The notes below the pieces were generated by a model. That model did no database searches, was not told the origin of the DNA, and was given only the letters and a program-made list of their open reading frames with translations. From Spinacia oleracea (taxonomy: Eukaryota > Streptophyta > Magnoliopsida > Caryophyllales > Amaranthaceae), in contig NC_079491.1 of NCBI RefSeq assembly GCF_020520425.1, forward strand, positions 1,922,001 through 1,986,000: a stretch of DNA of 64,000 nucleotides, given 5' to 3'. This document shows, in pieces, positions 13,596 to 44,570 of the stretch; within the stretch, counting starts at the first letter, position 1; every line of letters starts with the position of its first letter. Both the position numbers and the translations under genes were made by a program.

Positions 13596-13602
13596 TTCTA
13601 CT

Positions 13603-16132: not shown

Positions 16133-16135
16133 TTT

Positions 16136-16323: not shown

Positions 16324-17845
16324 TCAGTCTAGTTGTTTGGTCCAGTCGAATGGCTTCCAATCTCCAGCAAATGCAGAGACGGCTTCTTTTTGAGCATCGA
16401 CCGACTCGTTCTGACGACGACGATACATATTTTCATCCTGGGACTGTAGCATGCCCCTAATCACGTTGAGACCAAAACTAGTTTTGAATTGTGTTTCGTC
16501 GTCAATTACATGTACAAATCCCTTGTCAAGTCCAAATTCTACATGGAAGTAGGGGAAGTCCTTGGGGATTGAAGCACGCAGCCCTTTCTTACTCGTATCA
16601 ATTAATTTCTTTGCATTGTGCTGACTCCACTCGTCTTCTGCCTCGTCAATTGCCTACAAAAGAAGAAGAAAACATTCCTCAAAACCACGAGAAAGAGGTG
16701 GAAGTACATTGCATGGCGTTGCTGAACAAGTATGTAATAATGTTTCTGCTATTTTGCACCTAGAATAACCAACTATACTTGATATTCATTGAATTATCTA
16801 CATCACTGTAAAATAAGGAAGTCAAGTCACACATCTTTGGTGAAGGGTTAAGGTCAATTTCCTAAGTAGGCTTGCTCAGTTTAGACAGGGAAGCACTGTT
16901 TTTCTTTGCCTCTCATAAGCAGCTGGGCTCTGGGGCAGTGCCAAAAGCAAACATATTTTATGATACTGAAAGAAAGTTGGGCAGCTTGCATTCTTGCAAG
17001 TCAAATACAGTAAACAGAGAAATTTCATTATTTGTCGTTTGAATTTGGAGTTGAAATAAAACTTCTATGAGAAATTTTTAACTACCACGCAACGCACAGT
17101 TCTAGTACTAAGAAGTACTTCTATAAAAGAAGATTTAGGAGTGGACCATACTCCGTACTAAACATGAATCACACTCAATTCTGCATGCAGAAAAAGGTTC
17201 CTTAGGATTGATGTAAATATGCGGACACGTCACCACATCAATGTACTATTCAGCAAGTTTAGAACTAATTTGAAGAAAACCATAAATAAATGAGATGAAG
17301 GACATTTTTGGTGAAACAACCCCCCACTGACTATACATTCAGATATCATACCAGCCATCCCAAACAATTCAAGACCCATTATCCTTTACCAGCACCACCA
17401 ACTCAGCAAATTAACACAACTCACCATCAAAAACAAACAAGGGGAGATAAAGAAAATAGAAGATTATCACGTATGCCCCATTGTCAGTCAGGCATCAATT
17501 CAGAGGGACATATTGAGTTGTCACCTCTAGAATTCAAATTTTAAGTATATAATACTGAGATGAAAACGAACCTTTTTAAAATAAAGAGGTGCTTCTTTTG
17601 CAATGTCTTTGGGCAAAGGAATGCATTCGATTAAGCAATGGCGGCGCTGCTGTGCCAACCAAAGCACTGTTTCCAAAAAGATCATTTCTTTGTCTTGCTT
17701 AGCAGCCATCATAATGAGGCACTTCTTGAAGTTGCGGATTTCTTCCCAAACATTTTCATCTACCATTCTTGTGGCCAACTCATGCTGTTGAGATAAACGT
17801 GATCAGATAGTTAGAATTTAAAGACCAAAAACAAACAGATTAATG

Positions 17846-17937
<92 letters not shown>

Positions 17938-19253
17938 GTATAACCCATTGTGATGTATGAAGCCATTATATTTGGCAATAGCATATGAATTTCTTAAACT
18001 AGAAGGAAAAAGAAATGAATCCACTTCTAAGCAAATAGCAGAAAGCTAAAAACAAGGTCAACTTATAGAGAAACAGAAAATACCTGCAATGTTAATATGC
18101 AACAATGGCCAGGGGCAACTGGCTGGAATTGTGGTAGCATTAGGTATGTAAAATTCGCTATAGCTACAACAAGATGCTTAGGCCTCTTTGGATTCTCAAA
18201 ACAGCATAAGCATCGCTCCTGTTGAGTAACAATTCGCTTTCCCACATTTTGCATAGAATGTGATCTGTTCTCATGGTCTCCACCTTTTCTCCTGCCCTTT
18301 TTGGTCGGTGCCCCATCATAATCATATTCATCATCAGCCTGAGTAGACATACTATATTTCTTATTCTTCGTTATCGTCTGAGCCAAATGTCTATCACCAT
18401 CATCTTCTTTTCCCTTCTGCTGCAACTGTTTTTCTTGAGCAGCATATCTGATGATAATAATAAATGTACTCTATAAGCAATAAGAATCAGATATCTACTT
18501 ATAATGATGGCAGACTTCCAACATCCTGACAATTTCAAAAGGTTTTCAAAGGCAACTATGGAATTCAAGTAAGAACTAGAGAAAGGAAGGGAAACTATGT
18601 ACGGTACCTGCTCGAACTGACATCGTTTCTTAGTTTTACTAATCTCTCCCCTGCACTGTGATCCACTGTATTGTTTCCAGCTTCTTTCTGGTAAAACAAA
18701 AAAAGAAAAGTAACTGCATTTAGTTAAGCAACACCTTTAACTCTTCACGCAAAACTCTTTGGCTTACAAAGCATGGCTTCCAGGAATAGAATTATCGAGG
18801 GAAGGGGGGGGGGGGATTATGAAGCAAAGACACGTCAACTTAACTTTCGAATACAAGTCTGTCAAAAGCAAAATCATTGTTCTACATGAGAAGAAAAATA
18901 CGTTCAATGTTTTATACTGCTAAGGCCCTTGGCCTAGACACCTTTAAATCAGATCTACTTGATTTTCCCAAACTTTTCTCCAGGCTTGACATGGTCACAT
19001 CAAAGAAAATTTTGAGCGGCAAAATAGAGCAAGATACTCATCAACCTCATTGTATATTTGTATCATCATCTTGAAACTCAGCCTATCCCAATTCCAAATT
19101 ATATATTGCATCAGCTCCACTGACATATCAGGTCATGATTCCTAAACTCTTTATATCAAGGATAAAAGGCTTAACAACTTGCCAAATACCCTAAATCATC
19201 ATTGTTTACATTTCCTTTTTTCATTTTTTTGCGGGGGGAGAGGGGAAGGGGAA

Positions 19254-19288
<35 letters not shown>

Positions 19289-22200
19289 CAGCACTAAGTC
19301 ATAACGTAGCAATGTCAAAGAATCTCACCAGGAGTTTATCAGCTTCCTCATGCTTGCCTTTTAGTCTTAGCTGCATGGCTTTCGCAGCGAGTTGATTAGC
19401 ACTCAGAGGCTGCTTTTCCTCGCTAGATTTCTTTATAACTGAATCAGAATCTCCCTCCCGAATAGCATCAGATTTTGAACTTGAGACATCCTGAGAGCCA
19501 TATCCAGGTTTTTTGTGCTGATTTACAAATTCACTCATGAAGTTTCCATCATTAGAAAAGTTGTTTATGCTAGAAAGTGCATTTGAGATCAAGGCAGCAT
19601 CTTCACTTCTCATTTTATGACCTTTTCTTCCTCCCCAGGATAACGAATCGTGAACTTTAGGTGCTTTCATTTCAGGACGGCGGACAGAAGTATCCCTCAT
19701 ATTTTCACGTCCAGTATCCTGTAGAATCATCTTTGCAATATTAGGATGTAAAAATATATGAATTTCACTAATTTCAGCATAAGCATGGAACTATTTTATT
19801 AAACCCGACCCTCAAATGTCCACCCATACTCCTCAAGGTACATTGGCCATCCCATAACCTTTAATTCTAAAGAATGCTACTGCTCTGTTAGAATCCAACA
19901 AGAACGAAGTAGACTAGTAGGTAACAAACCAACAAGTACATTGCATTAATGGAAGCACTGAAGATCGTCTTAATCTAGACCATTTTGAAGTGAACTGACA
20001 AGCGGTGTAATATAGCTTACAGGAAAATAAAGAAATTCATATTCAACATCAGAGACTAGGAAAAGAGTTAGTCAGTGATGTATGTTGACTGAAGATTGAT
20101 AGCTCAGTAGCTCACCTTTTCAGGATCCCTTTTACTTTCACTAGTTAAATCTGATTTAGCTTCCCCGCCTGCTCCTATCTTCCGGGATTTTATGGCGTGC
20201 AAATGAGCACGGGGAGCAGCGGCACTACGAGATGCCACAGACACCGCAAGAGTACCTAGAGATCCCCACCTTTCTTTAACAACCTGAAAATATCAAGTTT
20301 CCTTTAGTTCAAAATTTCAGAAAAATTCTGGCATAACTATAAACATGCCCTTCAGAGCTTACGAACGTGCAACATACTTCTTTAACATGTGTTCCCTCGC
20401 GTGTTGCTTGCTCTTGTGCACGCTTCAAAGCCTTCATTCTCCAGCTTGCTCCACCGTCCCCCACTAAAGAAGATGCCAAAAGTTGATCGCTTTTAGCCTT
20501 TGTTTGATCTGCATCTTCAGGATAGCCACTTCCACTGTCCCTCAGATAAGGATTCAGTTCTTTGCGGTTTACTATTTCCTTCTGATTAAAAACAAGATAA
20601 ATGAGTTCTCCAAAAATTATGCTTCATCGTACTTTAACATATAGATATTGATAAGCATGTAGAACTCTAATTAGCAATGAAATTTGGCAAACTTAAAGGT
20701 AGCATGAAGCTCAGAAGCAGGCTCCAAAACTATATGGCATGTCCACTCATTACACAAGGTTCACAAACCTTTTTGAATAAATTATGTCAATAGATAAGAA
20801 TAGGGGAAAATGGCAGTCACACCACAAAAAGGCAATGGAGGGTAATTGGGTACACAAGTCTGAATCTGTAAAACTCAAACTCTCAAACAATATAATTTTA
20901 GAATAAATGTGATCATAAACTGCATTAAAACTGTCAACACACCACCTTAGTTTTAAAAAGCGTGAAGCACACTGAAGCGCAAAAGGGCCCTGGAGCTTAA
21001 GCGCAAAGCGCAAATCGAAAGCGCACGCTTTTCGTAGGCGAAGCGCACCCGGAAAGAAATAATAAAATTTCACAAGTTCAAAAAATATGGAAAGAAAAGA
21101 TGAAAAAAAAAAGAGAAATCAAAACGATGAAAGAAAAATTCAGAATCCGACGGGAGAAATCCGGTGAGAAGGCTAGAGAAATCCGGCTACGGGAGAAAAT
21201 TGCACTAGGGTTTTCAAAAACATCCCAAATATTCTCTTTTCAAAAAAAAAAGAAATCATGTGATACTTTAGAAAGAAGATTAGAGTCACGTGGCTTTAAT
21301 TTTTATAAAAAAGAAGGGTCTGATGTGCCCAGACTACAAGAAGCGCAAAAGCGCTAGGAAGCGCGCGCTTCTTGTATGTCGCTAGGCTTCGGCTTAGCTT
21401 CTGAGCTTCCGAGCTTTAAGCGCAAAAAAGCGCGCGCTTCTTGTATGTCGCTAGGCTTCGGCTTAGCTTCTGAGCTTCCGAGCTTTAAGCGCAAAAAAGC
21501 GCGCTTTTTAAAACTAAGCACACCACAGGTCCACACCTTCCACACCCCCAATTAAAATGTCAACCCCTTATTGACTTATTGTCCACTAGTCTTATTCTTA
21601 TATGCAAGCGATGCGTGGGAAAGTATTAATGTATATAATAAACATGTAAGAAACATTGTTCACAAAGTTCATCATAAGAAAAAATTATGACTTTTGCTTG
21701 ATATTGTGTGATTGATCAGTTAATATTTAGCAATAATTTTGATTAGAGAATTTTTGGGGTGTGATTGGGAAGTAAGAATGTTTTAATTATTCTTGAACAG
21801 ATTTTAATTTTGTCATATGCGTACAATTTGGGATGGAGACTCTATCAAATGAAATGTTCACCCTTTCGTTGATTTCACATAACTATGTAGCCCTTGATTT
21901 AAGATATTTTCCTTTAATATGTTCTGCTTCCGCTACCTGTCTGATGAGGTATTTGTCATTTTCTTTATATAACTGCATCTTCCTTATTTGCAGTTCCTTG
22001 TTTTACCGTTTTCACCTTCCTTAAGTAATCTCCTTTTCGGGGCATTTTGCAATTAAACACTCACTATATTTTACAATTAACAGGGGCGTTAAAGACTATT
22101 CATAAGGGGAAGTAAAAGGTCATTAATGACCTTAGGAAACTCCATAGAATATAGATTCACTACCTTGAATGGCTTGTTTTCAAGTAAAAGATGGTTTTTG

Positions 22201-23243
22201 TAAATGATGAAGTACACAAAGCTACTCGCATCATTGCCTACGATAATGTTTGTAATGGTAACTTGTTTCGCACACAAATAAATTTCTTCATCAATATGAG
22301 AAAAACTAATTTGACAATAACTGCTTGAAACCAAGGCCACCAAAACTATGCAGACAATCAATAAACCAACTTCAGACAAATAACAAGGCCCTTGGTCATT
22401 AAATATTTTGAAGCAACTGGTTTCAGTGTTGATCTCTAAATTCAGCAATTATGACTCGTGAGAAAGTCAAGGTTTAGTCTAGCCTACCTCTTCACTACCG
22501 GACTCGACTGGCTGCTCCTTATACAGTGGCTGAGCACTTTTGCCTGTTTTTTCAGCTGGTCTAGTCATCCAGTCCAACCCCATTTCCTTTCTCACGATAT
22601 CAATTTTATCCTTAGAGCTAGGGCCTCCAGCACCATCTGTGTTCAATACAATTAAAAAGTTATTAGTTAACCATTTTTCAATAATCAGGTATGAAAAACC
22701 ACAAGTCTCTACCAATAAGCAATCAAAAGTAACATAAATATGTACCAGAATCTTTCTCTTTACCCTTACTCCTACGCTTCCTTCTTCCTATACCATCATC
22801 CTCTCCACTCTCAGAGCCAGATAAAGAATCATCTTCGGAAGAATACTTCCGTTTGCTTCTTTTCGACTTCTTCTTAACCTTCAGCTTACGACTCTTGTGC
22901 TTCTTCCTGTCACCTCCCAAGCTATTATCACTCACATCATCCGCTGAAGATGAAGCCGAATACTCATCAGAAGAGTACCACTTCTTTTTCTTAGACCCTT
23001 TCCTAATTTTCTCATGTTCTTCATCATCTGAAGTACTATATTTGGAACCCTTCTTCTTCCCCCTATCTTTCTTGCCACTCGATTCCTCGATATTTCCCTG
23101 CGGCAACAGGGAATGTGTTTCACCAGCGTAAAAATCAACAACTACACTCAAAGTTCACCATTAGAAAGATATTAACAGAGCAAGTACAAGTGCCTTACCC
23201 TATCAACTTGATCCCGAGAAATCAACTTAATTCCAGACAGCAT
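16324..23243 (-). CDS. CWF19L2: CWF19-like protein 2 (CwfJ family, spliceosome-associated), complete
   Basis: CWF19-family proteins associate with the late or post-splicing spliceosome and lariat debranching (family knowledge). Exons: 23199-23243, 22746-23097, 22488-22636, 20378-20581, 20116-20283, 19329-19718, 18608-18687, 18084-18447, 17572-17784, 16324-16653. All are GT-AG and in phase, giving 764 residues. The start is the ATG of MLSGIKLISRDQVDR. Residues 16-132 are a Lys/Ser/Asp/Glu-rich low-complexity region (KKKSKRSKRKYSSED). The conserved C-terminus begins in exon 8 with CLCCFENPKRPKHLVVAI and PVAPGHCCILTLQHE (CwfJ N-terminal, HIT-like) and continues with YFHVEFGLDKGFVHVID and FDWTKQLD-stop in exons 9-10. 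The exon 6 acceptor could instead be 14 nt upstream (19732), but that would shift the phase, so 19718 is preferred. Introns carry an hAT-like element, an (AT)n tract and a poly-G tract. A near-identical second copy lies across the gap. Confidence 0.92.
17848..17934. repeat. (AT)n microsatellite in CWF19L2 intron 8
   Basis: About 43 AT dinucleotides. The copy across the gap (31380-31461) is 4 bp shorter, the first length difference between the two copies. Confidence 0.97.
19228..19282. repeat. Poly-G tract in CWF19L2 intron 6
   Basis: A GGGGAAGGGG prelude is followed by 29 consecutive G on the plus strand (C in the transcript), 46 bp from the exon 6 donor. The second copy has 27 G. A tract this long is hard to sequence exactly. 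Confidence 0.9.
20946..21518. mobile_element. Non-autonomous hAT-like element in CWF19L2 intron 3
   Basis: Perfect 17-bp terminal inverted repeats (CTTAGTTTTAAAAAGCG and its complement) are flanked by a perfect 8-bp target-site duplication, CACACCAC (20938-20945 and 21519-21526). The 573-bp interior has no transposase. It is rich in AAGCGC/GCGCTT and includes a direct repeat of about 67 bp (about 21363-21430 and 21431-21497) with TTCTTGTATGTCGCTAGG and TTAGCTTCTGAGCTTCCG. An 8-bp duplication is diagnostic of hAT-type insertion, so the superfamily call is an inference from structure. Confidence 0.85.
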
Positions 23244-23715
23244 ATTGTTATTCGACCTGAAAATAGAAAGGCCCCTTGAATACTTTTCAAATACCACATA
23301 AAATTGCAAGCTAGGGCATCTAATAACACTAGATAATTGCACGAACAATGAAGTAATCACATGCAATCAGGTATGAATTTGATTTTAAAATCTATTAAAT
23401 CTGGAAATTGAAATGATGAAATTGAATTCCAAATCAATTGTTTGGAGAACCTAATCATTTGAATTCTAGGGTGCAATTAGGTTGAATAAATTGGAGCTAA
23501 ATTGGGGGAAGGGGTTGGAAATTGCAGTAGAATACCTAAGATTGCAAGAAGAGAAACCCTTTTCTGGGGTTTCGCTAACTACTTCACCGCCGCAGTAGAC
23601 GCAAGGAAGAGAGAGAGCAGACGGCAAGAGCGACGAAGAGGAGTGGAGGGAGGTGGAGCTCTCCCGCCTATGAGGTTGTTTGACTCTTTTCCAACTTCCC
23701 TTTCATTTTTTTAAC

Positions 23716-24040
23716 AAAAGATCTTGTGCGCACAAGTTGTACAATAAATTTATTGTACACCAACATAATTTTTATCCAATTTTTTTGTAATTTTAACCTA
23801 GTTTTTATTAACTTTTATATTAGTAATAAAAAAGTTGATAGATAAATATTTTAAAGGGTTAAATGAATAATTATATACATTATTAGTCATTTTGAAGAAA
23901 TAAGTTTTACTAAAATTTAAAAAATTATCACTAAAAAATAGATAATTTTTACATATATAAGTTTAACTTTTAAGCATTTTGAGTTAACTTTTACTTCGGT
24001 GTACAATATTTATTGTACACCCCTTGTAAATAAGAATTTG
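23716..24040. mobile_element. MITE with TGTACAATAAAT inverted ends
   Basis: The left end (GATCTTGTGCGCACAAG, then TTGTACAATAAATTTATTG and TACACC) matches the reverse complement of the right end (TTCTTATTTACAAGGGG, TGTACAATAAATATTG, TACACC). The interior is AT-rich and non-coding. The ends themselves are near-palindromic. Family unknown; boundaries are approximate. Confidence 0.65.
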
Positions 24041-24454
24041 TGTTTTCCTAATTCTTTTTAACGATCCAAGTTTATGTTAGATTCATTGATCAAATATTAG
24101 TCTGTTACAATATTGGTCCTAATTATATTAGAAAATTAAATTTGACTAGAAATTGTACGTAAATTATTTTAAGAGATTTATTTCTATCGCATCCTCGCGG
24201 TTATAGCAGAAGGAGGGCGTACGCCACTGTTCCTAAAATCGAAAAATAAAAGTCGTAGAAGGTCTCTTTTGAAGGTGTCTGCAAACTAATTCCGAGAAGG
24301 AACAATAAAAAATGAAAATAAATAATAAACAATAATAACAATAATAATAAAAATAAAAAAAATAATTAATAATTAATAATATATATAAAAATTAATAATA
24401 TATATAAAAAAAATTAATTAATAATAATAAATAACGTTTTCAGATTTTTACGGG

Positions 24455-24745
24455 TACGACCGTACAGGTTGAAACGGGTTCGGATTTTAACATGTTCGGA
24501 TTTTTATGGGTACGGGTTGAAACGGGTTCGGATTTTAACGGGTTTAGGATTTAACGGGTATGCATGGGTTGAAACGAGTTCGGGTTGTCATAGATCCTGG
24601 ATTAAACGGGAACGGGTTGAAACGGTTTCGGGTATTAACGGGTACGGGTTTAAACGGGAACGAGTTGAAAAGGGGTTGGGTTTAAACGGATTTGAGAATC
24701 ATATCGGTCATCTTCATGTCAGATCGGGTAAATCGGGTTCGAATG
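24455..24745. repeat. Degenerate ACGGGTTYRAAACGGG-type tandem repeat
   Basis: Many imperfect 12-20 bp units built on GGGTTGAAACGGGTTCGG, ATTTTAACGGGTACGGG and GTTTAAACGGGAACG. It is much more GC-rich than the flanks. It gives an open frame only because of the repeat composition. Confidence 0.7.
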
Positions 24746-24799
24746 TAATGGCTCAATTTTCGCCGAATTTGGGTTCTTATCGGTTATGGTTAATATCGT

Positions 24800-25039
24800 G
24801 TCGGGTTATTTATAATCATAATAGTAATATTTCACTAATAATAATAATAAGAATGATAATAATAAGAATAATAATAATATTAAGAAGAAGAAGAATAAGA
24901 ATAATAATATAAGAATAATTATTTAATTATTAATTATTATTATTTATTATTTATTATTTATTATTATTATAATTATTATTTTATTATAATTATTATTTAT
25001 TATTATTATTATTATTATTATTTATTATTTTTGTTATTA

Positions 25040-25086
<47 letters not shown>

Positions 25087-25095
25087 GTTGATGTT
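24800..25095. repeat. TTA/ATA-rich low-complexity tract
   Basis: AATAAT, then TTATTA and ATT trinucleotide runs, passing into GTTGTTGTT. The second copy is about one triplet longer in the 25030-25090 part. Confidence 0.9.
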
Positions 25096-25107
25096 GTTGT
25101 TGTTGAA

Positions 25108-25231
25108 TCTTATTGGAACTTATTGGAACTTATCTGAACTTATTGGAACTTACCTGAACTTATTGTAACTTATTGAAACTTATTGGAACTTATTGAAACT
25201 TATCTGAACTTATCTGAACTTATTGGAACTA
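25108..25231. repeat. GAACTTATTG minisatellite
   Basis: About a dozen 10-bp units (GGAACTTATT, TGAACTTATC, TGAAACTTATTG variants) in tandem, ending just before AAAACTTATTTTTTTTAAGG. Confidence 0.9.
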
Positions 25232-25644
25232 AAACTTATTTTTTTTAAGGTGAACAGAACGCACCCTGAGTGTTACCAAACACATTTATGTAACTACTAG
25301 TTAAATTCGTAGTCAAATTTGCTAAACAAAAAGATAATCTGCTAATCGCTAATGCAAGAAGTAAACGACTAAACTCCATTTGCCAAACAAGGCCATTGAT
25401 CATTGTTAATTTATATGAACTTGAATGGGAAATATTTCATATTAAGATAGTATGAGAAGTTAAAGTTTTTGAAAGAGAAATTAAACAATCACGAAATCGT
25501 TGACGATCTTAATTAATAATTTTAATTGTAGTGAAAAAAATCACCTAATTTCCCTCTTCTTAAATTACCGTGAAATACTGAAATGCTAAAGAGATTATAT
25601 TATTAGTTATGTTCGGTGGAGATGTCAAAGGGCTGATTCATCCG

Positions 25645-26040
25645 TGAACAACTCGTGAACAAGCTCGGTCAAACCGTTCAAATAAAATTTTGAAGCTCGT
25701 TTAATAAATGATACTAGCTCGACAACTTGGTCTTCGGCTCATTTAGGATGCGAACAACTCGTTCATATTCGTTTATAAGCTCGACCGTGTTCGTTTATAA
25801 GCTCGTTCAAGCTAGATCTTTTAGTTAGAACTAAGTTGTAATTATTTTGTTAGACTTCAATTTTCAGAATATTTTATTTTATGAGAGTATAAACTAGTAT
25901 TAGTAAGTATAATTGCAAAAAACTTATTTGAAATGGTTATTTTTAAAAAATTCAAAACAATATTACGTTTATTGATATGTTCGTTTAAATTCGTTGTGGA
26001 TCGTTTATCAAGGTCTGTTTGTGAAAAGCTCGTTTATTAA
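25645..26040. repeat. CTCGTTTATAAGCTCG-rich dispersed repeat
   Basis: Repeated direct and inverted short motifs (AACAACTCGTGAACAAGCTC, TTCGTTTATAAGCTCG, GAAAAGCTCGTTTATTAA) without coding capacity. They resemble a decayed plant repeat. The following 26170-26330 is rich in CCAACAGCCAA units and ends with GCCAAACAGGGCCATTA, as DNA-transposon edges often do. Confidence 0.45.
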
Positions 26041-27078
26041 TACTATTTCATAAAGTAATTTATTTTTAATTAATATTTTATTTATTTGTAATTTCGTTTT
26101 ACTCCGTACATAATACAAAGTATGTATTGAAAAATGAATAAAAGACATTAAATGTCCTTAAATGTCATTTTACATAGCTACAACCAACAGCCAACAACTG
26201 ATTTTTCCAAACATATTTGAAACCAATCCATAGTCAAACAGCCAACAAAAGCAGCCTACTTGAACAACCAGTCAAACCAGCCAAGTAAAACAGCCAACAA
26301 CCAACAGCCAATTGCCAAACAGGGCCATTAGCGGAATGTTAATATGACATGTGAAGAAAATATTAATATAAGATCCCCTTGAATTTAGCATCAAGGTCTC
26401 CCACCTTCAACATCACTAGCTCTTTTCAAACAAAACACCCTTCCACTACCATCAATGCCGTTGATTGGGATAACCGGGGGGGGGGGGGGATTACGACGGG
26501 AAAGAAGGTGTAGAGTGTATTCTTATATATAGTGCAAAATCTTCTCAACGGTTGTAGTTTTGATCAACAAATACCTCATTTTAGTTCAATTATTATGTAT
26601 AAATTAAATTTGATTTTTATTATAGATGAATGACTTTTTATAAATGAATTAATTTTACTATAACCTGGTCATTTTCATGGTAGTTACAAATGTAATTTGG
26701 AGATTTTAAGTAATGGATTATTTGGGCGACATAACGATAAAATTAACAAGATATATGAGGAGGTCATCAAAATAATAAACTTGAATGATCTGAAGCATCG
26801 CTCGAGACGATAACTAATTTTGTTACTGACCAAAAATATAAAAAAATAAAATAAAAAAATTGATTAATTACCACCTTCCACGCGTATCTCTCTCCTTAAT
26901 CACACTTACTTTTATTTTCTGTTTGACTCGGACAAAATCTAAACATTCCCCCAAATTTCTCATTTCCCCCTCCTCTCTTCGACTTCTTTCTCTCTCCTCT
27001 TCTTCAACAAAAATTCAAAAAAGTTCATCAATCAAAATCCCCAATCCCAAAATCGCTAACCCTAAAACCCCCAAAACA

Positions 27079-30000
27079 ATGGACAAATCAACGCTAGCCT
27101 CCATTGGAGAACGCCTGAAAGCAGGGGGAACACAAATGGGAAGAACAATATCCCTAAAAGTGAAGGAAATGAAGGACCTTCTTCAAACTCCAACTCCTGA
27201 ATCACGAATCGTTGATCAATCCACTTCCCCGACGCTTGAATCGCCCGATTGGGGCCTTAATTTGAGAATTTGCTCGTTACTTAACGCCGAGGAGCTGAAC
27301 GGCGCTGAGATTATGAAGGCGATTAAGAAGAAGATTAACAATAGCGGAAACGGCGATGCGAAGACGTTGAGGTTGGCATTGGAGCTTCTAGAAGCTTGTG
27401 CGATGAATTGCGAGAAGGTATTCTCGGAGATTGCGTCGGAGAAAGTGGTGGAAGATATGGTGGCTAAGCTCATTGAGAATCCTCAGGCTGATCGCGAATG
27501 TCAAGTTAGAGCTATGGAGTTGATTAGGGCTTGGGGCGAGACCGAGGAGTTGAGTTATTTGCCAGTTTTTCGCCAAACTTATGAGGTAATTTTGAATGAT
27601 TTCGAGCCGGAATGTTGGCTGTTGATGAGTTTGTTAATATTTGGGTGAAATGCTTTAATACTTGGCATGATTTGTTCATATTTTGCTATGTATGAATTCA
27701 ATGTTTAATGGATGTGTGTGTTTTAGGATAAATTAGGGCATCTTCCTTATTTTTCCTCAAATTCATTTGCGCCTTTATGTTATTTATGGAATCTGGGTTA
27801 TTCAAATTATTCCAATGATTTTAATTATGTTGGAGATTGTAGTTGAATTATAAATAATGTTGATCTTATCTCTTCAAAGCATTGTTGCCAGCTTGCTACA
27901 CCATTAAAATTAAAATTATAGCACATCTTGGAAGTCTAGTAATTAGTCATTCGGTTTTTCTAATTAGCCTCGTTCATAATCTATTTCAGGGAATTAAATT
28001 TATAGGTAACAAAGAAAGATACGAAGCATTAAATAACTTTTCTTTTGGGTTCATCATTCCCTTCTTTTTGGCCGCTAAAAATAGATTGTGGATGGATGAT
28101 GCTTAACAACAATACCAAGTGCCTGTGGACTTGTTAGAAAGACTGTTAATCATTAAGCAGTGGCGGTGCCAGGAATTTTCCGTTAAGGGTTCGAATTTTT
28201 TATTTTTTTTTTGAAAAAAACAGTTAATTGATCATGTTTTTCAAAAAAAGTAAAAATAAATAAAGCCCCCTAAAATACTGAGTTTTTTTTTAACAAAAGA
28301 ACAATAACTATAAAAAATAGAGAAACAAATGACAAAATAAAATAGAAAAGCATAGAATAATAACTACCGAAAAAAGGGAAGCAAGTGGGCAGTGGCTAGA
28401 TTCGAACCCCCGTCTACTTGGTATCAGTCGGGAGATCTGACCACTGCGCCATATCTGCTCATCATCATTATTGCTGCACGCAATAGTATTTATTACAAAG
28501 TCCAGTAGGGGTTCAGTTGAACCCACTGAACCCCTACTGGCACCGCCACTGTCATTAAGTATTGATAGGTGATTTTTTCGACATCTGAGATTTGTTCAAA
28601 TAATTCATACGATTTTAATTTTGTTGGAGATTGAAATTATACCATTTCCTTTTGTGTGATGCTGGATTGGTAACTTTCATCATATTTGATTATTTGTCGT
28701 CACACTCCAATGCGTCCAGCTATCCTTGACAAGCTTTATATATGCTAATGCTCATTTGGGAAGTAATTAGGTAACATAATAGCACTGGTTGTACTTAGTA
28801 CACCTTAAATAATGGAATTGTGAAAAACGGTATCATATTTGATGTCATCCTATCAAAGTTTATATTGGTCTTAAACGATATGCTAATATCTCTGGTGTTG
28901 CTCTTTTGCTTCTTCATCAAATCAAATTGACAGAACTTGCAAAGGAGGAGTATGTCTTCTCAGGTCGAAGATGGAGGATTTCTACCCGTGCATTATTCTT
29001 TGGAATCATTAATTGACGAGCATGCAGTCTCGCCACCTGAAAGCTATCCAATTCCTGGCTCAGAGTCAAATGATGCATCTGATGCTATGCCGCCTTACAA
29101 TTATGGCAGTCTCAGTGTTGAACAAAAGAAAGAGTTTCTAGAAATTACCAAGAATAGCCTTGAAGTGCTATCCAGCTTGTTGAACTCTGAAGCAGAGCCC
29201 GAAGTCATTGAGGTAAATTTCCTTTTAAAGGTCTGGGTATTGCTGTTTAACTGTTCAATAAAATATTTAGGACTCAGCTGTTGAACACTGCGGATTTATA
29301 AATATTATTGGACCAAAGAGTGTCTTATACTCTTACGTATATACCAGTAGTTTGCTTTTTATTTTTTGCTGTTCCATAAGCATACTTCCTTTGTTCTTGT
29401 TTAATCGACATATTTTGACTTAAACCCTACTCATACAATTGCTTTATGTGTAAGGTAAATATAATCATGTGTGATCTTGTTAGATTCATCTCGATAAATA
29501 TTTTCTAAATATCTAACTTTGTATGATCTTCTCTTTTACATAATTGAAGATATAAATGATCAAAGATGTGCATTAACAAATATAACTAAAGAAACGTCTC
29601 AACTAAATAAGAACAGAGGAAGTATATAGTTTGCAGCACCCCGACCAATTTGCCATTTGTCATTGAAGCATCTTCATCTCAGGATGGCGTTAGGTGTAGT
29701 ATTGACATGCATAGTTTTTTAAATAACCAAAACTGACTTACGGGAATTTTGCTAGTAGTATGATAGTATCTAATGTCATGAATCAAAGGTCATGACATTA
29801 GAACATCCGAAAACATGGGGAAAAAGCTATATTACGGGAGTACATTATCTGTTGTTTGCAAAACCTGAAGACTTCTATTAATGTGGTACATTTTCTGATA
29901 GTTTTTTAAGACTCTTATTAATCAAGTGCCAGATTTTCCTACTCCTTGCATTTATCAGTCTGTTTATTTCAGTCCATACATGAAGAACTTTCTTTATTCT

Positions 30001-31003: not shown

Positions 31004-31042
31004 GACAAAATTTAAGAGTATTTACATGTCCTTTCAGGTTTC

Positions 31043-31142
31043 NNNNNNNNNNNNNNNNNNNNNNNNNNNNNNNNNNNNNNNNNNNNNNNNNNNNNNNNNN
31101 NNNNNNNNNNNNNNNNNNNNNNNNNNNNNNNNNNNNNNNNNN
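31043..31142. other. Assembly gap, 100 N
   Basis: Exactly 100 N, the conventional placeholder for a scaffold join of unknown size. Open frames running through it are artefacts. Confidence 1.
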
Positions 31143-31376
31143 GGCAAAGGAATGCATTCGATTAAGCAATGGCGGCGCTGCTGTGCCAACCAAAGCACTG
31201 TTTCCAAAAAGATCATTTCTTTGTCTTGCTTAGCAGCCATCATAATGAGGCACTTCTTGAAGTTGCGGATTTCTTCCCAAACATTTTCATCTACCATTCT
31301 TGTGGCCAACTCATGCTGTTGAGATAAACGTGATCAGATAGTTAGAATTTAAAGACCAAAAACAAACAGATTAATG

Positions 31377-31464
<88 letters not shown>

Positions 31465-32780: not shown

Positions 32781-32813
<33 letters not shown>

Positions 32814-35800
32814 CAGCACTAAGTCATAACGTAGCAATGTCAAAGAATCTCACCAGGAGTTTATCAGCTTCCTCATGCTTGCCTTTTAGTCTTAGCTGCA
32901 TGGCTTTCGCAGCGAGTTGATTAGCACTCAGAGGCTGCTTTTCCTCGCTAGATTTCTTTATAACTGAATCAGAATCTCCCTCCCGAATAGCATCAGATTT
33001 TGAACTTGAGACATCCTGAGAGCCATATCCAGGTTTTTTGTGCTGATTTACAAATTCACTCATGAAGTTTCCATCATTAGAAAAGTTGTTTATGCTAGAA
33101 AGTGCATTTGAGATCAAGGCAGCATCTTCACTTCTCATTTTATGACCTTTTCTTCCTCCCCAGGATAACGAATCGTGAACTTTAGGTGCTTTCATTTCAG
33201 GACGGCGGACAGAAGTATCCCTCATATTTTCACGTCCAGTATCCTGTAGAATCATCTTTGCAATATTAGGATGTAAAAATATATGAATTTCACTAATTTC
33301 AGCATAAGCATGGAACTATTTTATTAAACCCGACCCTCAAATGTCCACCCATACTCCTCAAGGTACATTGGCCATCCCATAACCTTTAATTCTAAAGAAT
33401 GCTACTGCTCTGTTAGAATCCAACAAGAACGAAGTAGACTAGTAGGTAACAAACCAACAAGTACATTGCATTAATGGAAGCACTGAAGATCGTCTTAATC
33501 TAGACCATTTTGAAGTGAACTGACAAGCGGTGTAATATAGCTTACAGGAAAATAAAGAAATTCATATTCAACATCAGAGACTAGGAAAAGAGTTAGTCAG
33601 TGATGTATGTTGACTGAAGATTGATAGCTCAGTAGCTCACCTTTTCAGGATCCCTTTTACTTTCACTAGTTAAATCTGATTTAGCTTCCCCGCCTGCTCC
33701 TATCTTCCGGGATTTTATGGCGTGCAAATGAGCACGGGGAGCAGCGGCACTACGAGATGCCACAGACACCGCAAGAGTACCTAGAGATCCCCACCTTTCT
33801 TTAACAACCTGAAAATATCAAGTTTCCTTTAGTTCAAAATTTCAGAAAAATTCTGGCATAACTATAAACATGCCCTTCAGAGCTTACGAACGTGCAACAT
33901 ACTTCTTTAACATGTGTTCCCTCGCGTGTTGCTTGCTCTTGTGCACGCTTCAAAGCCTTCATTCTCCAGCTTGCTCCACCGTCCCCCACTAAAGAAGATG
34001 CCAAAAGTTGATCGCTTTTAGCCTTTGTTTGATCTGCATCTTCAGGATAGCCACTTCCACTGTCCCTCAGATAAGGATTCAGTTCTTTGCGGTTTACTAT
34101 TTCCTTCTGATTAAAAACAAGATAAATGAGTTCTCCAAAAATTATGCTTCATCGTACTTTAACATATAGATATTGATAAGCATGTAGAACTCTAATTAGC
34201 AATGAAATTTGGCAAACTTAAAGGTAGCATGAAGCTCAGAAGCAGGCTCCAAAACTATATGGCATGTCCACTCATTACACAAGGTTCACAAACCTTTTTG
34301 AATAAATTATGTCAATAGATAAGAATAGGGGAAAATGGCAGTCACACCACAAAAAGGCAATGGAGGGTAATTGGGTACACAAGTCTGAATCTGTAAAACT
34401 CAAACTCTCAAACAATATAATTTTAGAATAAATGTGATCATAAACTGCATTAAAACTGTCAACACACCACCTTAGTTTTAAAAAGCGTGAAGCACACTGA
34501 AGCGCAAAAGGGCCCTGGAGCTTAAGCGCAAAGCGCAAATCGAAAGCGCACGCTTTTCGTAGGCGAAGCGCACCCGGAAAGAAATAATAAAATTTCACAA
34601 GTTCAAAAAATATGGAAAGAAAAGATGAAAAAAAAAGAGAAATCAAAACGATGAAAGAAAAATTCAGAATCCGACGGGAGAAATCCGGTGAGAAGGCTAG
34701 AGAAATCCGGCTACGGGAGAAAATTGCACTAGGGTTTTCAAAAACATCCCAAATATTCTCTTTTCAAAAAAAAAGAAATCATGTGATACTTTAGAAAGAA
34801 GATTAGAGTCACGTGGCTTTAATTTTTATAAAAAGAAGGGTCTGATGTGCCCAGACTACAAGAAGCGCAAAAGCGCTAGGAAGCGCGCGCTTCTTGTATG
34901 TCGCTAGGCTTCGGCTTAGCTTCTGAGCTTCCGAGCTTTAAGCGCAAAAAAGCGCGCGCTTCTTGTATGTCGCTAGGCTTCGGCTTAGCTTCTGAGCTTC
35001 CGAGCTTTAAGCGCAAAAAAGCGCGCTTTTTAAAACTAAGCACACCACAGGTCCACACCTTCCACACCCCCAATTAAAATGTCAACCCCTTATTGACTTA
35101 TTGTCCACTAGTCTTATTCTTATATGCAAGCGATGCGTGGGAAAGTATTAATGTATATAATAAACATGTAAGAAACATTGTTCACAAAGTTCATCATAAG
35201 AAAAAATTATGACTTTTGCTTGATATTGTGTGATTGATCAGTTAATATTTAGCAATAATTTTGATTAGAGAATTTTTGGGGTGTGATTGGGAAGTAAGAA
35301 TGTTTTAATTATTCTTGAACAGATTTTAATTTTGTCATATGCGTACAATTTGGGATGGAGACTCTATCAAATGAAATGTTCACCCTTTCGTTGATTTCAC
35401 ATAACTATGTAGCCCTTGATTTAAGATATTTTCCTTTAATATGTTCTGCTTCCGCTACCTGTCTGATGAGGTATTTGTCATTTTCTTTATATAACTGCAT
35501 CTTCCTTATTTGCAGTTCCTTGTTTTACCGTTTTCACCTTCCTTAAGTAATCTCCTTTTCGGGGCATTTTGCAATTAAACACTCACTATATTTTACAATT
35601 AACAGGGGCGTTAAAGACTATTCATAAGGGGAAGTAAAAGGTCATTAATGACCTTAGGAAACTCCATAGAATATAGATTCACTACCTTGAATGGCTTGTT
35701 TTCAAGTAAAAGATGGTTTTTGTAAATGATGAAGTACACAAAGCTACTCGCATCATTGCCTACGATAATGTTTGTAATGGTAACTTGTTTCGCACACAAA

Positions 35801-36765
35801 TAAATTTCTTCATCAATATGAGAAAAACTAATTTGACAATAACTGCTTGAAACCAAGGCCACCAAAACTATGCAGACAATCAATAAACCAACTTCAGACA
35901 AATAACAAGGCCCTTGGTCATTAAATATTTTGAAGCAACTGGTTTCAGTGTTGATCTCTAAATTCAGCAATTATGACTCGTGAGAAAGTCAAGGTTTAGT
36001 CTAGCCTACCTCTTCACTACCGGACTCGACTGGCTGCTCCTTATACAGTGGCTGAGCACTTTTGCCTGTTTTTTCAGCTGGTCTAGTCATCCAGTCCAAC
36101 CCCATTTCCTTTCTCACGATATCAATTTTATCCTTAGAGCTAGGGCCTCCAGCACCATCTGTGTTCAATACAATTAAAAAGTTATTAGTTAACCATTTTT
36201 CAATAATCAGGTATGAAAAACCACAAGTCTCTACCAATAAGCAATCAAAAGTAACATAAATATGTACCAGAATCTTTCTCTTTACCCTTACTCCTACGCT
36301 TCCTTCTTCCTATACCATCATCCTCTCCACTCTCAGAGCCAGATAAAGAATCATCTTCGGAAGAATACTTCCGTTTGCTTCTTTTCGACTTCTTCTTAAC
36401 CTTCAGCTTACGACTCTTGTGCTTCTTCCTGTCACCTCCCAAGCTATTATCACTCACATCATCCGCTGAAGATGAAGCCGAATACTCATCAGAAGAGTAC
36501 CACTTCTTTTTCTTAGACCCTTTCCTAATTTTCTCATGTTCTTCATCATCTGAAGTACTATATTTGGAACCCTTCTTCTTCCCCCTATCTTTCTTGCCAC
36601 TCGATTCCTCGATATTTCCCTGCGGCAACAGGGAATGTGTTTCACCAGCGTAAAAATCAACAACTACACTCAAAGTTCACCATTAGAAAGATATTAACAG
36701 AGCAAGTACAAGTGCCTTACCCTATCAACTTGATCCCGAGAAATCAACTTAATTCCAGACAGCAT
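31143..36765 (-). CDS. CWF19L2: CWF19-like protein 2, second copy, 3' end lost in the gap
   Basis: Exons 36721-36765, 36268-36619, 36010-36158, 33903-34106, 33641-33808, 32854-33243, 32135-32214 and 31611-31974 match exons 1-8 of the first copy. Exon 9 (from 31315) is cut by the gap at 31143, and exon 10 is absent. The encoded residues equal those of the first copy as far as visible. The missing 3' end follows from the contig boundary, so it should not be read as a biological truncation, and this should not be counted as a second gene. Confidence 0.9.
31380..31461. repeat. (AT)n microsatellite, second copy
   Basis: Counterpart of 17848-17934, 4 bp shorter. Confidence 0.95.
34471..35040. mobile_element. 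hAT-like element, second copy
   Basis: Same termini and same CACACCAC flanks as 20946-21518. It is 3 bp shorter, from three A-runs. The identical flanking duplication shows it is the same insertion event carried in the duplicated segment. Confidence 0.85.
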
Positions 36766-38514
36766 ATTGTTATTCGACCTGAAAATAGAAAGGCCCCTTG
36801 AATACTTTTCAAATACCACATAAAATTGCAAGCTAGGGCATCTAATAACACTAGATAATTGCACGAACAATGAAGTAATCACATGCAATCAGGTATGAAT
36901 TTGATTTTAAAATCTATTAAATCTGGAAATTGAAATGATGAAATTGAATTCCAAATCAATTGTTTGGAGAACCTAATCATTTGAATTCTAGGGTGCAATT
37001 AGGTTGAATAAATTGGAGCTAAATTGGGGGAAGGGGTTGGAAATTGCAGTAGAATACCTAAGATTGCAAGAAGAGAAACCCTTTTCTGGGGTTTCGCTAA
37101 CTACTTCACCGCCGCAGTAGACGCAAGGAAGAGAGAGAGCAGACGGCAAGAGCGACGAAGAGGAGTGGAGGGAGGTGGAGCTCTCCCGCCTATGAGGTTG
37201 TTTGACTCTTTTCCAACTTCCCTTTCATTTTTTTAACAAAAGATCTTGTGCGCACAAGTTGTACAATAAATTTATTGTACACCAACATAATTTTTATCCA
37301 ATTTTTTTGTAATTTTAACCTAGTTTTTATTAACTTTTATATTAGTAATAAAAAAGTTGATAGATAAATATTTTAAAGGGTTAAATGAATAATTATATAC
37401 ATTATTAGTCATTTTGAAGAAATAAGTTTTACTAAAATTTAAAAAATTATCACTAAAAAATAGATAATTTTTACATATATAAGTTTAACTTTTAAGCATT
37501 TTGAGTTAACTTTTACTTCGGTGTACAATATTTATTGTACACCCCTTGTAAATAAGAATTTGTGTTTTCCTAATTCTTTTTAACGATCCAAGTTTATGTT
37601 AGATTCATTGATCAAATATTAGTCTGTTACAATATTGGTCCTAATTATATTAGAAAATTAAATTTGACTAGAAATTGTACGTAAATTATTTTAAGAGATT
37701 TATTTCTATCGCATCCTCGCGGTTATAGCAGAAGGAGGGCGTACGCCACTGTTCCTAAAATCGAAAAATAAAAGTCGTAGAAGGTCTCTTTTGAAGGTGT
37801 CTGCAAACTAATTCCGAGAAGGAACAATAAAAAATGAAAATAAATAATAAACAATAATAACAATAATAATAAAAATAAAAAAAATAATTAATAATTAATA
37901 ATATATATAAAAATTAATAATATATATAAAAAAAATTAATTAATAATAATAAATAACGTTTTCAGATTTTTACGGGTACGACCGTACAGGTTGAAACGGG
38001 TTCGGATTTTAACATGTTCGGATTTTTATGGGTACGGGTTGAAACGGGTTCGGATTTTAACGGGTTTAGGATTTAACGGGTATGCATGGGTTGAAACGAG
38101 TTCGGGTTGTCATAGATCCTGGATTAAACGGGAACGGGTTGAAACGGTTTCGGGTATTAACGGGTACGGGTTTAAACGGGAACGAGTTGAAAAGGGGTTG
38201 GGTTTAAACGGATTTGAGAATCATATCGGTCATCTTCATGTCAGATCGGGTAAATCGGGTTCGAATGTAATGGCTCAATTTTCGCCGAATTTGGGTTCTT
38301 ATCGGTTATGGTTAATATCGTGTCGGGTTATTTATAATCATAATAGTAATATTTCACTAATAATAATAATAAGAATGATAATAATAAGAATAATAATAAT
38401 ATTAAGAAGAAGAAGAATAAGAATAATAATATAAGAATAATTATTTAATTATTAATTATTATTATTTATTATTTATTATTTATTATTATTATAATTATTA
38501 TTTTATTATAATTA

Positions 38515-38547
<33 letters not shown>

Positions 38548-38564
38548 TATTATTTTTGTTATTA

Positions 38565-38611
<47 letters not shown>

Positions 38612-40605
38612 GTTGATGTTGTTGTTGTTGAATCTTATTGGAACTTATTGGAACTTATCTGAACTTATTGGAACTTACCTGAACTTATTGTAACTTATTG
38701 AAACTTATTGGAACTTATTGAAACTTATCTGAACTTATCTGAACTTATTGGAACTAAAACTTATTTTTTTTAAGGTGAACAGAACGCACCCTGAGTGTTA
38801 CCAAACACATTTATGTAACTACTAGTTAAATTCGTAGTCAAATTTGCTAAACAAAAAGATAATCTGCTAATCGCTAATGCAAGAAGTAAACGACTAAACT
38901 CCATTTGCCAAACAAGGCCATTGATCATTGTTAATTTATATGAACTTGAATGGGAAATATTTCATATTAAGATAGTATGAGAAGTTAAAGTTTTTGAAAG
39001 AGAAATTAAACAATCACGAAATCGTTGACGATCTTAATTAATAATTTTAATTGTAGTGAAAAAAATCACCTAATTTCCCTCTTCTTAAATTACCGTGAAA
39101 TACTGAAATGCTAAAGAGATTATATTATTAGTTATGTTCGGTGGAGATGTCAAAGGGCTGATTCATCCGTGAACAACTCGTGAACAAGCTCGGTCAAACC
39201 GTTCAAATAAAATTTTGAAGCTCGTTTAATAAATGATACTAGCTCGACAACTTGGTCTTCGGCTCATTTAGGATGCGAACAACTCGTTCATATTCGTTTA
39301 TAAGCTCGACCGTGTTCGTTTATAAGCTCGTTCAAGCTAGATCTTTTAGTTAGAACTAAGTTGTAATTATTTTGTTAGACTTCAATTTTCAGAATATTTT
39401 TATTTTATGAGAGTATAAACTAGTATTAGTAAGTATAATTGCAAAAAACTTATTTGAAATGGTTATTTTTAAAAAATTCAAAACAATATTACGTTTATTG
39501 ATATGTTCGTTTAAATTCGTTGTGGATCGTTTATCAAGGTCTGTTTGTGAAAAGCTCGTTTATTAATACTATTTCATAAAGTAATTTATTTTTAATTAAT
39601 ATTTTATTTATTTGTAATTTCGTTTTACTCCGTACATAATACAAAGTATGTATTGAAAAATGAATAAAAGACATTAAATGTCCTTAAATGTCATTTTACA
39701 TAGCTACAACCAACAGCCAACAACTGATTTTTCCAAACATATTTGAAACCAATCCATAGTCAAACAGCCAACAAAAGCAGCCTACTTGAACAACCAGTCA
39801 AACCAGCCAAGTAAAACAGCCAACAACCAACAGCCAATTGCCAAACAGGGCCATTAGCGGAATGTTAATATGACATGTGAAGAAAATATTAATATAAGAT
39901 CCCCTTGAATTTAGCATCAAGGTCTCCCACCTTCAACATCACTAGCTCTTTTCAAACAAAACACCCTTCCACTACCATCAATGCCGTTGATTGGGATAAC
40001 CGGGGGGGGGGGGGGGATTACGACGGGAAAGAAGGTGTAGAGTGTATTCTTATATATAGTGCAAAATCTTCTCAACGGTTGTAGTTTTGATCAACAAATA
40101 CCTCATTTTAGTTCAATTATTATGTATAAATTAAATTTGATTTTTATTATAGATGAATGACTTTTTATAAATGAATTAATTTTACTATAACCTGGTCATT
40201 TTCATGGTAGTTACAAATGTAATTTGGAGATTTTAAGTAATGGATTATTTGGGCGACATAACGATAAAATTAACAAGATATATGAGGAGGTCATCAAAAT
40301 AATAAACTTGAATGATCTGAAGCATCGCTCGAGACGATAACTAATTTTGTTACTGACCAAAAATATAAAAAAATAAAATAAAAAAATTGATTAATTACCA
40401 CCTTCCACGCGTATCTCTCTCCTTAATCACACTTACTTTTATTTTCTGTTTGACTCGGACAAAATCTAAACATTCCCCCAAATTTCTCATTTCCCCCTCC
40501 TCTCTTCGACTTCTTTCTCTCTCCTCTTCTTCAACAAAAATTCAAAAAAGTTCATCAATCAAAATCCCCAATCCCAAAATCGCTAACCCTAAAACCCCCA
40601 AAACA
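36766..40605. other. Second copy of the CWF19L2/TOL2 spacer
   Basis: Counterpart of 23244-27078, with the same repeats in the same order: ACGGGTT-type repeat at about 37977-38267, TTA-rich tract, GAACTTATTG minisatellite at about 38633-38756, CTCGTTTATAAGCTCG repeat at about 39167-39567 and a 15-G tract near 40002-40016. Confidence 0.85.
37238..37562. mobile_element. TGTACAATAAAT MITE, second copy
   Basis: Counterpart of 23716-24040 within the duplicated segment. Confidence 0.65.
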
Positions 40606-43600
40606 ATGGACAAATCAACGCTAGCCTCCATTGGAGAACGCCTGAAAGCAGGGGGAACACAAATGGGAAGAACAATATCCCTAAAAGTGAAGGAAATGAA
40701 GGACCTTCTTCAAACTCCAACTCCTGAATCACGAATCGTTGATCAATCCACTTCCCCGACGCTTGAATCGCCCGATTGGGGCCTTAATTTGAGAATTTGC
40801 TCGTTACTTAACGCCGAGGAGCTGAACGGCGCTGAGATTATGAAGGCGATTAAGAAGAAGATTAACAATAGCGGAAACGGCGATGCGAAGACGTTGAGGT
40901 TGGCATTGGAGCTTCTAGAAGCTTGTGCGATGAATTGCGAGAAGGTATTCTCGGAGATTGCGTCGGAGAAAGTGGTGGAAGATATGGTGGCTAAGCTCAT
41001 TGAGAATCCTCAGGCTGATCGCGAATGTCAAGTTAGAGCTATGGAGTTGATTAGGGCTTGGGGCGAGACCGAGGAGTTGAGTTATTTGCCAGTTTTTCGC
41101 CAAACTTATGAGGTAATTTTGAATGATTTCGAGCCGGAATGTTGGCTGTTGATGAGTTTGTTAATATTTGGGTGAAATGCTTTAATACTTGGCATGATTT
41201 GTTCATATTTTGCTATGTATGAATTCAATGTTTAATGGATGTGTGTGTTTTAGGATAAATTAGGGCATCTTCCTTATTTTTCCTCAAATTCATTTGCGCC
41301 TTTATGTTATTTATGGAATCTGGGTTATTCAAATTATTCCAATGATTTTAATTATGTTGGAGATTGTAGTTGAATTATAAATAATGTTGATCTTATCTCT
41401 TCAAAGCATTGTTGCCAGCTTGCTACACCATTAAAATTAAAATTATAGCACATCTTGGAAGTCTAGTAATTAGTCATTCGGTTTTTCTAATTAGCCTCGT
41501 TCATAATCTATTTCAGGGAATTAAATTTATAGGTAACAAAGAAAGATACGAAGCATTAAATAACTTTTCTTTTGGGTTCATCATTCCCTTCTTTTTGGCC
41601 GCTAAAAATAGATTGTGGATGGATGATGCTTAACAACAATACCAAGTGCCTGTGGACTTGTTAGAAAGACTGTTAATCATTAAGCAGTGGCGGTGCCAGG
41701 AATTTTCCGTTAAGGGTTCGAATTTTTTATTTTTTTTTTGAAAAAAACAGTTAATTGATCATGTTTTTCAAAAAAAGTAAAAATAAATAAAGCCCCCTAA
41801 AATACTGAGTTTTTTTTTAACAAAAGAACAATAACTATAAAAAATAGAGAAACAAATGACAAAATAAAATAGAAAAGCATAGAATAATAACTACCGAAAA
41901 AAGGGAAGCAAGTGGGCAGTGGCTAGATTCGAACCCCCGTCTACTTGGTATCAGTCGGGAGATCTGACCACTGCGCCATATCTGCTCATCATCATTATTG
42001 CTGCACGCAATAGTATTTATTACAAAGTCCAGTAGGGGTTCAGTTGAACCCACTGAACCCCTACTGGCACCGCCACTGTCATTAAGTATTGATAGGTGAT
42101 TTTTTCGACATCTGAGATTTGTTCAAATAATTCATACGATTTTAATTTTGTTGGAGATTGAAATTATACCATTTCCTTTTGTGTGATGCTGGATTGGTAA
42201 CTTTCATCATATTTGATTATTTGTCGTCACACTCCAATGCGTCCAGCTATCCTTGACAAGCTTTATATATGCTAATGCTCATTTGGGAAGTAATTAGGTA
42301 ACATAATAGCACTGGTTGTACTTAGTACACCTTAAATAATGGAATTGTGAAAAACGGTATCATATTTGATGTCATCCTATCAAAGTTTATATTGGTCTTA
42401 AACGATATGCTAATATCTCTGGTGTTGCTCTTTTGCTTCTTCATCAAATCAAATTGACAGAACTTGCAAAGGAGGAGTATGTCTTCTCAGGTCGAAGATG
42501 GAGGATTTCTACCCGTGCATTATTCTTTGGAATCATTAATTGACGAGCATGCAGTCTCGCCACCTGAAAGCTATCCAATTCCTGGCTCAGAGTCAAATGA
42601 TGCATCTGATGCTATGCCGCCTTACAATTATGGCAGTCTCAGTGTTGAACAAAAGAAAGAGTTTCTAGAAATTACCAAGAATAGCCTTGAAGTGCTATCC
42701 AGCTTGTTGAACTCTGAAGCAGAGCCCGAAGTCATTGAGGTAAATTTCCTTTTAAAGGTCTGGGTATTGCTGTTTAACTGTTCAATAAAATATTTAGGAC
42801 TCAGCTGTTGAACACTGCGGATTTATAAATATTATTGGACCAAAGAGTGTCTTATACTCTTACGTATATACCAGTAGTTTGCTTTTTATTTTTTGCTGTT
42901 CCATAAGCATACTTCCTTTGTTCTTGTTTAATCGACATATTTTGACTTAAACCCTACTCATACAATTGCTTTATGTGTAAGGTAAATATAATCATGTGTG
43001 ATCTTGTTAGATTCATCTCGATAAATATTTTCTAAATATCTAACTTTGTATGATCTTCTCTTTTACATAATTGAAGATATAAATGATCAAAGATGTGCAT
43101 TAACAAATATAACTAAAGAAACGTCTCAACTAAATAAGAACAGAGGAAGTATATAGTTTGCAGCACCCCGACCAATTTGCCATTTGTCATTGAAGCATCT
43201 TCATCTCAGGATGGCGTTAGGTGTAGTATTGACATGCATAGTTTTTTAAATAACCAAAACTGACTTACGGGAATTTTGCTAGTAGTATGATAGTATCTAA
43301 TGTCATGAATCAAAGGTCATGACATTAGAACATCCGAAAACATGGGGAAAAAGCTATATTACGGGAGTACATTATCTGTTGTTTGCAAAACCTGAAGACT
43401 TCTATTAATGTGGTACATTTTCTGATAGTTTTTTAAGACTCTTATTAATCAAGTGCCAGATTTTCCTACTCCTTGCATTTATCAGTCTGTTTATTTCAGT
43501 CCATACATGAAGAACTTTCTTTATTCTTAGCCAGTTGAAAATTTATGCGTCGTTCACCATGTTTTCTGGTAAGTATTTGTCCATTGATTGGTTCAGTGAA

Positions 43601-44073
43601 AGTGGAATTTGTTTGTACTATTGCAGGATGATCTGACAATTAACATGTTGGACAAGTGCAAGGAGTCACAGCCTGTTCTGCAAAGGATAGTTCAAAGCAC
43701 AAATGATGATGAAAGCTTGCTCTTTGAAGCTCTAAACCTAAATGATGAGCTTCAGCATGTCCTTTCAAAATTTGAGGAAATGCAAGTTTCAAGAAAACCC
43801 AACACCACGCAACAACCCGAGGAATCTCATTCTGTTGATGCACAACAACCCCCTCCAATGGTAGAAACCCCAGATATGAACAAATCAACAGAAACCCAAA
43901 AAGTAGAAAATGCAAAATCTTCTGAGGAATTGCAGAAGGAACCTCATCCTGTTCCAATGGTAGAAACCCCAGATGTTTACAAATCAACAGAAACCCTAAA
44001 AGTAGAAAATGCAAAATCTTCTGCTGCAAATCTTCTCAACGAGAGCGGTGAATCGAGCAGCGATGAGAAGTGA
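40606..44073 (+). CDS. TOL2: TOM1-like VHS/GAT-domain protein, second copy
   Basis: Exons 40606-41112, 42461-42739 and 43627-44073 encode the same 410 residues as 27079-30546, including the 33-residue tail repeat. Introns and embedded transposons are also shared. The copy is intact and would look functional, but the gap-edge geometry argues that it is the same gene assembled twice. Confidence 0.9.
41685..42078. mobile_element. hAT-like element with tRNA-like segment, second copy
   Basis: Counterpart of 28158-28551 with the same TCATTAAG flanks; the tRNA-like part is at about 41918-41989, minus strand. Confidence 0.87.
42922..43149. mobile_element. Stowaway-like MITE in TOL2 intron 2, second copy
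   Basis: Counterpart of 29395-29622, TA-flanked. Confidence 0.85.
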
Positions 44074-44432
44074 GGTTTGTTATGGTGGAGTGAACTTTGT
44101 TTCCTCCCCTCCTTTCCCTGCTTTTCTTCTCTCTTTAAAGTGAATGATGTATGCTTATTATGGCTGCGTTTTCCAGTTGGCCATGGTTGTAGTTGTTTCA
44201 AGAGTTCGGTTTTTTGTATTTGTGTTTGTATTCATGTATGATGATAGAATATTTTCTCCATCCTAAAATAACTAATGTTATAGCCCTTCTGTAAATAATG
44301 ATCTTGGCAACCTTGCTATGTTTCTCGCACTTGTATTTGAGTAATAATAGCAGCTCCAGAATCATTTAAACTATGTTACAGTGTTACTCTACACTTCACA
44401 GGTTGAGTACTCGGACGTTTGTATGACAAAAT

Positions 44433-44530
44433 TAGACCTGATCAAATTGCAGGCTGGTTCCTGCTTGACCACGCCTTAAAAATTATGCCAATTAGGTCGG
44501 GCCGGGCCGGGCTCATGATGATCAGGTCTA
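44433..44530. mobile_element. GACCTGATCAA inverted-repeat element, copy A duplicate
   Basis: Counterpart of 30906-31003 inside the duplicated segment. Confidence 0.75.
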
Positions 44531-44570
44531 GACAAAATTTAAGAGTATTTTACATGTCCTTTCAGGTTTC

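Follow-up and report, generated by a model that had tools for sequence, protein, structure and literature searches.

The 64-kb window analysed here, a stretch of C5 in a spinach genome assembly, is interrupted by a single run of N, and the sequence that ends at this run appears to begin again on its other side. This raises the question of whether a 13.4-kb segment with two genes was duplicated in the plant, or whether one sequence was written twice. The duplicated stretch most likely represents a known class of assembly error and not a true gene duplication, as set out below from the alignment of the two copies, their edges and a divergent paralog on C1.

Overlap across the scaffold gap

A BLASTN search of the 31,042 bases to the left of the gap against everything to its right (E up to 1e-5) returned a single full-length match, 17612-31042 against 31143-44570 on the plus strand, with the shorter matches corresponding to simple or tandem repeats within this same stretch. 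Global alignment of the two segments from end to end gave 0 mismatches and 9 gaps, totaling 15 bases, confirming both the coordinates and the end-to-end match that had been proposed in the first-pass annotation of this DNA. Its description of the copies as directly oriented and as ending and starting at the gap was likewise borne out, with copy 1 running up to the 100-N gap and copy 2 starting from it with 0 bases to spare on either side, and its length of 50,472 bp for the collapsed locus agrees with our recomputed value (a calculated figure only). As judged from this alignment, a 13.4-kb end-to-end match is not due to chance. All 20 of the 10-kb stretches upstream of the window (C5:1722001-1922000) were free of further N-runs.

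The differences between the copies are of one kind. All nine gaps are changes in run length, affecting two short tandem repeats (TA and TTA) and seven homopolymers (two of G, three of A and two of T; Table 1), in a segment where copy 1 contains 338 homopolymer runs of at least 4 bases and 10 of at least 8 bases. All five ORF pairs that we compared match exactly from one copy to the other. We read the nine gaps as consensus errors, as would be expected of two long-read consensuses that were polished separately.

Table 1. Coordinates of the features discussed, as positions in the 64-kb window.
Feature	Position	Strand	Remarks
RNase H-like (RVT_3) fragment	12820-13194	-	Pfam
CWF19L2-like gene, left contig	16327-23154	-	CwfJ_C_2 and CwfJ_C_1 domains; predicted, with provisional 5' end and splice sites
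CwfJ_C_2 of CWF19L2-like gene	ORF 16327-16653	-	Pfam; outside the repeated stretch
CwfJ_C_1 of CWF19L2-like gene	ORFs 17530-17802 and 18063-18470	-	Pfam; split
Putative further CWF19L2-like exons	ORFs 19299-19790 and 22723-23154	-	Assigned without a Pfam match
Copy 1	17612-31042	+	Terminal 13,431 bases of left contig; 0 mismatches and 9 run-length gaps versus copy 2
TA-repeat gap	17848		Run-length difference, copy 1 versus 2
G-run gap	19254		Run-length difference, copy 1 versus 2 (G29/G27)
8-bp direct repeats CACACCAC	20938-20945 and 21519-21526		Around the 573-bp element
573-bp element, CTTAGTTTTAAAA termini	20946-21518	no strand	In both copies; empty site in C1 paralog
A-run gaps	21103, 21242, 21307		Run-length differences, copy 1 versus 2
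TTA-repeat gap	24996		Run-length difference, copy 1 versus 2
T-run gap	25871		Run-length difference, copy 1 versus 2
G-run gap	26475		Run-length difference, copy 1 versus 2
VHS-GAT (TOM1-like) gene, copy 1	26842-30546	+	VHS in ORF 26842-27648, GAT in ORF 30073-30546
T-run gap	31020		22 bases before the end of the left contig
100-N scaffold gap	31043-31142	no strand	Sole N-run in the window
Copy 2	31143-44570	+	Opening 13,428 bases of right contig; matches copy 1 throughout
Truncated second image of CWF19L2-like gene	31145-36676	-	Starts mid-exon; without the CwfJ_C_2 ORF
VHS-GAT gene, copy 2	40369-44073	+	Both domain ORFs identical to copy 1 base for base
Helicase ORF	58213-59298	-	Helicase_C, HA2_N and HA2_C domains (Pfam)
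Tandem repeat	62101-62165		21-bp unit x 3.1, 100% matches

Genes, copy edges and the paralog on C1

Within the repeated stretch, the CWF19L2-like and VHS-GAT genes are divergently oriented. Pfam matches (E up to 0.001) were obtained for 9 of the 13 ORF pieces scanned, one of these only below the curated cut-off, with none in the other 4. The gene that had been called "TOL2-type" carries VHS and GAT domains and is TOM1-like, an assignment that holds at the level of domains and not of a TOL member number; the same two domains rule out an interpretation of this label as the Tol2 transposon.

The position of the copy edges bears directly on their origin. Copy 2 opens in the middle of an exon, covering positions 53-108 of the CwfJ_C_1 profile (122 positions long), compared to 53-122 in the left contig, and this exon is unbroken across 17612 both in the left contig and in the C1 paralog. 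Each edge and its counterpart have 0 bases in common, on either side, and there is therefore no recombination signature at the edges, where recombination between repeats would leave shared bases; on this ground, we rejected recombination or microhomology at these points. In the genome searched (894,210,420 bases in 242 sequences), and among the matches listed, 26842-31042 has full-length matches at two places, both on C5, and the right flank has, apart from repeats, one full-length match, namely itself. Partial matches to 26842-31042, again among those listed, comprise C4:186754451-186754847 (98%), many short repeats, and C4:73950989-73952889 (84-93%). The last of these matches 27546-29753, in the VHS-GAT region, in three pieces, and is perhaps an older fragmentary duplicate of that region.

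The CWF19L2-like gene has a dispersed duplicate at C1:114042509-114049846 (at least one further copy, among the matches listed), which provides a yardstick for divergence at this locus. Joined from four overlapping loci, the C1 paralog matches 16170-23705 in five blocks at 94.4-98.2%, and its global alignment to the C5 locus contains 171 substitutions in 6819 paired sites (2.5%) and 31 indel events. As the homology stops at 23705, the VHS-GAT neighbor is not included in the C1 duplicate. The earlier expectation that collapsing the repeat would leave one CWF19L2 thus stands for the C5 locus but not genome-wide, where this paralog is a second copy. The C1 paralog retains its introns, the 3 exon stretches compared are all open in frame, and a 470-bp stretch opposite 21958 is missing from C5. 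The 573-bp element, for which we found at least 39 further genomic matches at 79-87%, may be a hAT-type MITE, as suggested by its size and its 8-bp repeats.

Because the C1-C5 comparison contains 171 substitutions versus 31 indels, natural divergence at this gene is chiefly by substitution. Under this ratio, nine differences that are all indels, with 0 substitutions, have a probability of about 5e-8, a value that makes the case look too strong in that it gives simple repeats the mutability of the remaining sequence. Simple repeats mutate faster than average. When restricted to the 3 indels in runs of at most 6 bases, the corresponding value, calculated by hand and under the same mutation-rate assumption, is 0.153^3, or about 0.004. 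The divergence between the two C5 copies has a 95% upper bound of 0.022%, which is less than 1% of the C1-C5 divergence. By this bound, an old duplication is excluded, and the substitutions that would mark a true tandem duplication with an age above about 17,000 years number 0 in the C5 pair, although the bound alone does not discriminate between double representation of one sequence and a duplication that is very young.

Origin of the repeat

Taking these observations together, we consider it very probable that the 13.4-kb repeat is a homotype false duplication, that is, two contigs with a common end sequence that were N-joined instead of merged. The copies lie at contig ends with the gap between them, at the kind of boundary where such duplications are placed, and they carry 0 substitutions, as expected where haplotype variants are lacking. 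The first-pass annotation had also favored a false duplication, and its interpretation is supported by the zero substitutions, the run-length-only differences, the flush edges, the mid-exon start, the edges without homology and a fitting assembly recipe. Mechanistically, the left and right contigs would both terminate inside one and the same stretch of the genome, perhaps about as long as a long read and presumably present only once; the assembler would have left the overlapping contigs unmerged, and the Hi-C/Chicago scaffolder would then have set them adjacent, in the correct order and orientation, with a fixed 100-N spacer inserted where the real distance is about minus 13.4 kb. These assembler and scaffolder steps are the probable cause of the error.

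A spinach plastocyanin sequence matches the genome searched at 99 of 99 residues, at a single place, and the nucleotide matches listed lie on C1-C6. We infer that the assembly analysed is that of Monoe-Viroflay, which is described as comprising 894.3 Mb in six chromosomes and 307 contigs, with a contig N50 of 23.8 Mb (PMC8668906), and which would thus contain about 65 joins (307 contigs minus 242 sequences). The same source describes a selfed homozygous line showing no heterozygous k-mer peak, 118x PacBio CLR data from a library with a mean shear size of 20 kb, and a pipeline of Canu 1.7.1, Arrow, Pilon and HiRise (PMC8668906). The repeat, at 13.4 kb, compares with this mean of 20 kb, which is the shear size of the library of the presumed source assembly and not its read lengths. 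We note, however, that at 118x CLR coverage, merging of a 13.4-kb overlap would be expected, which is a point against an artefact.

We consider it improbable that the plant carries a genuine 13.4-kb tandem duplication of very recent age whose copies the assembler was unable to separate, so that contigs end at the repeat edges and the gap falls between the copies. The position at which a copy-to-copy junction would lie is occupied by the 100 N. The flush edges, on which the earlier false-duplication argument had leaned, are strong evidence but not decisive, since the contigs of such a repeat may likewise end at its edges, and 0 substitutions are compatible with an age below about 7,000-17,000 years (if rates of 1.5e-8 and 6.5e-9 per site and year are assumed). 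A young duplication would nevertheless require near-identity within the bound given above, a breakpoint that falls within a coding exon, breakpoints without homology, and 13.4 kb left unspanned by reads at the coverage and average shear described (PMC8668906). That the divergent CWF19L2/VHS-GAT pair was duplicated at most about 7,000-17,000 years ago, during the period of cultivation or close to it, is correspondingly a long shot.

Even less probable is a heterotype false duplication, in which a heterozygous plant would have contributed both of its alleles, one at each contig end. Such allelic overlap also yields end overlaps of neighboring contigs, as described by Kelley and Salzberg (2010, PMC2864568), but 0 substitutions in 13.4 kb and a fitting line without a heterozygous k-mer peak (PMC8668906) both speak against it, and with no allelic substitutions present we rejected heterozygous alleles as the source of the copies.

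A homotype false duplication has close parallels in published assemblies. According to Rhie et al. (2021, PMC8081667), homotype false duplications are frequently located at contig boundaries and are roughly as long as the reads. The spinach repeat resembles theirs in its position at a contig boundary and in being without allelic differences, and may do so in length. Their cases differ in coming from vertebrate assemblies and in being recognized by read depth, k-mers and maps, whereas the spinach locus was recognized by sequence alone; their hummingbird example is attributed to a bug in another assembler, FALCON (PMC8081667). Overlapping neighboring contigs also form a class of false duplication in the account of Kelley and Salzberg (2010, PMC2864568), where, as here, the ends of neighboring contigs align and should be joined, although the cause given there is heterozygosity, while the spinach copies are without any substitution. 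In a quinoa study, overlapping contig ends are treated as evidence for contig joining (PMC8519820).

Consequences for annotation and other features of the window

On the present scaffold, a single VHS-GAT gene probably shows up as two and a truncated extra CWF19L2 appears, such that an annotator would meet one fuller and one truncated CWF19L2 along with two VHS-GAT images. This resembles the false gene gain described by Ko et al. (2022, PMC9516828), in that annotation would yield one VHS-GAT gene too many and part of a further CWF19L2, as far as can be told from the bases themselves. Were the duplication instead young and real, the locus would comprise a pair of VHS-GAT genes together with a truncated CWF19L2. 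In addition, short reads from some 27 kb would be without unique placement, and variants in this sequence may go undetected. Should the assembly indeed be Monoe-Viroflay, the variation map from 305 resequenced accessions comes from the same paper (PMC8668906). In that case, the remaining joins, about 65 by subtraction, merit the same check for end overlaps, and an independent spinach assembly is described in PMC10890751.

Outside the repeated stretch, the RVT_3 fragment could be what is left of a retroelement or else a plant RNase H-like gene, and the helicase ORF is putatively of DEAH type; a short tandem repeat lies close to the right end of the window (Table 1).
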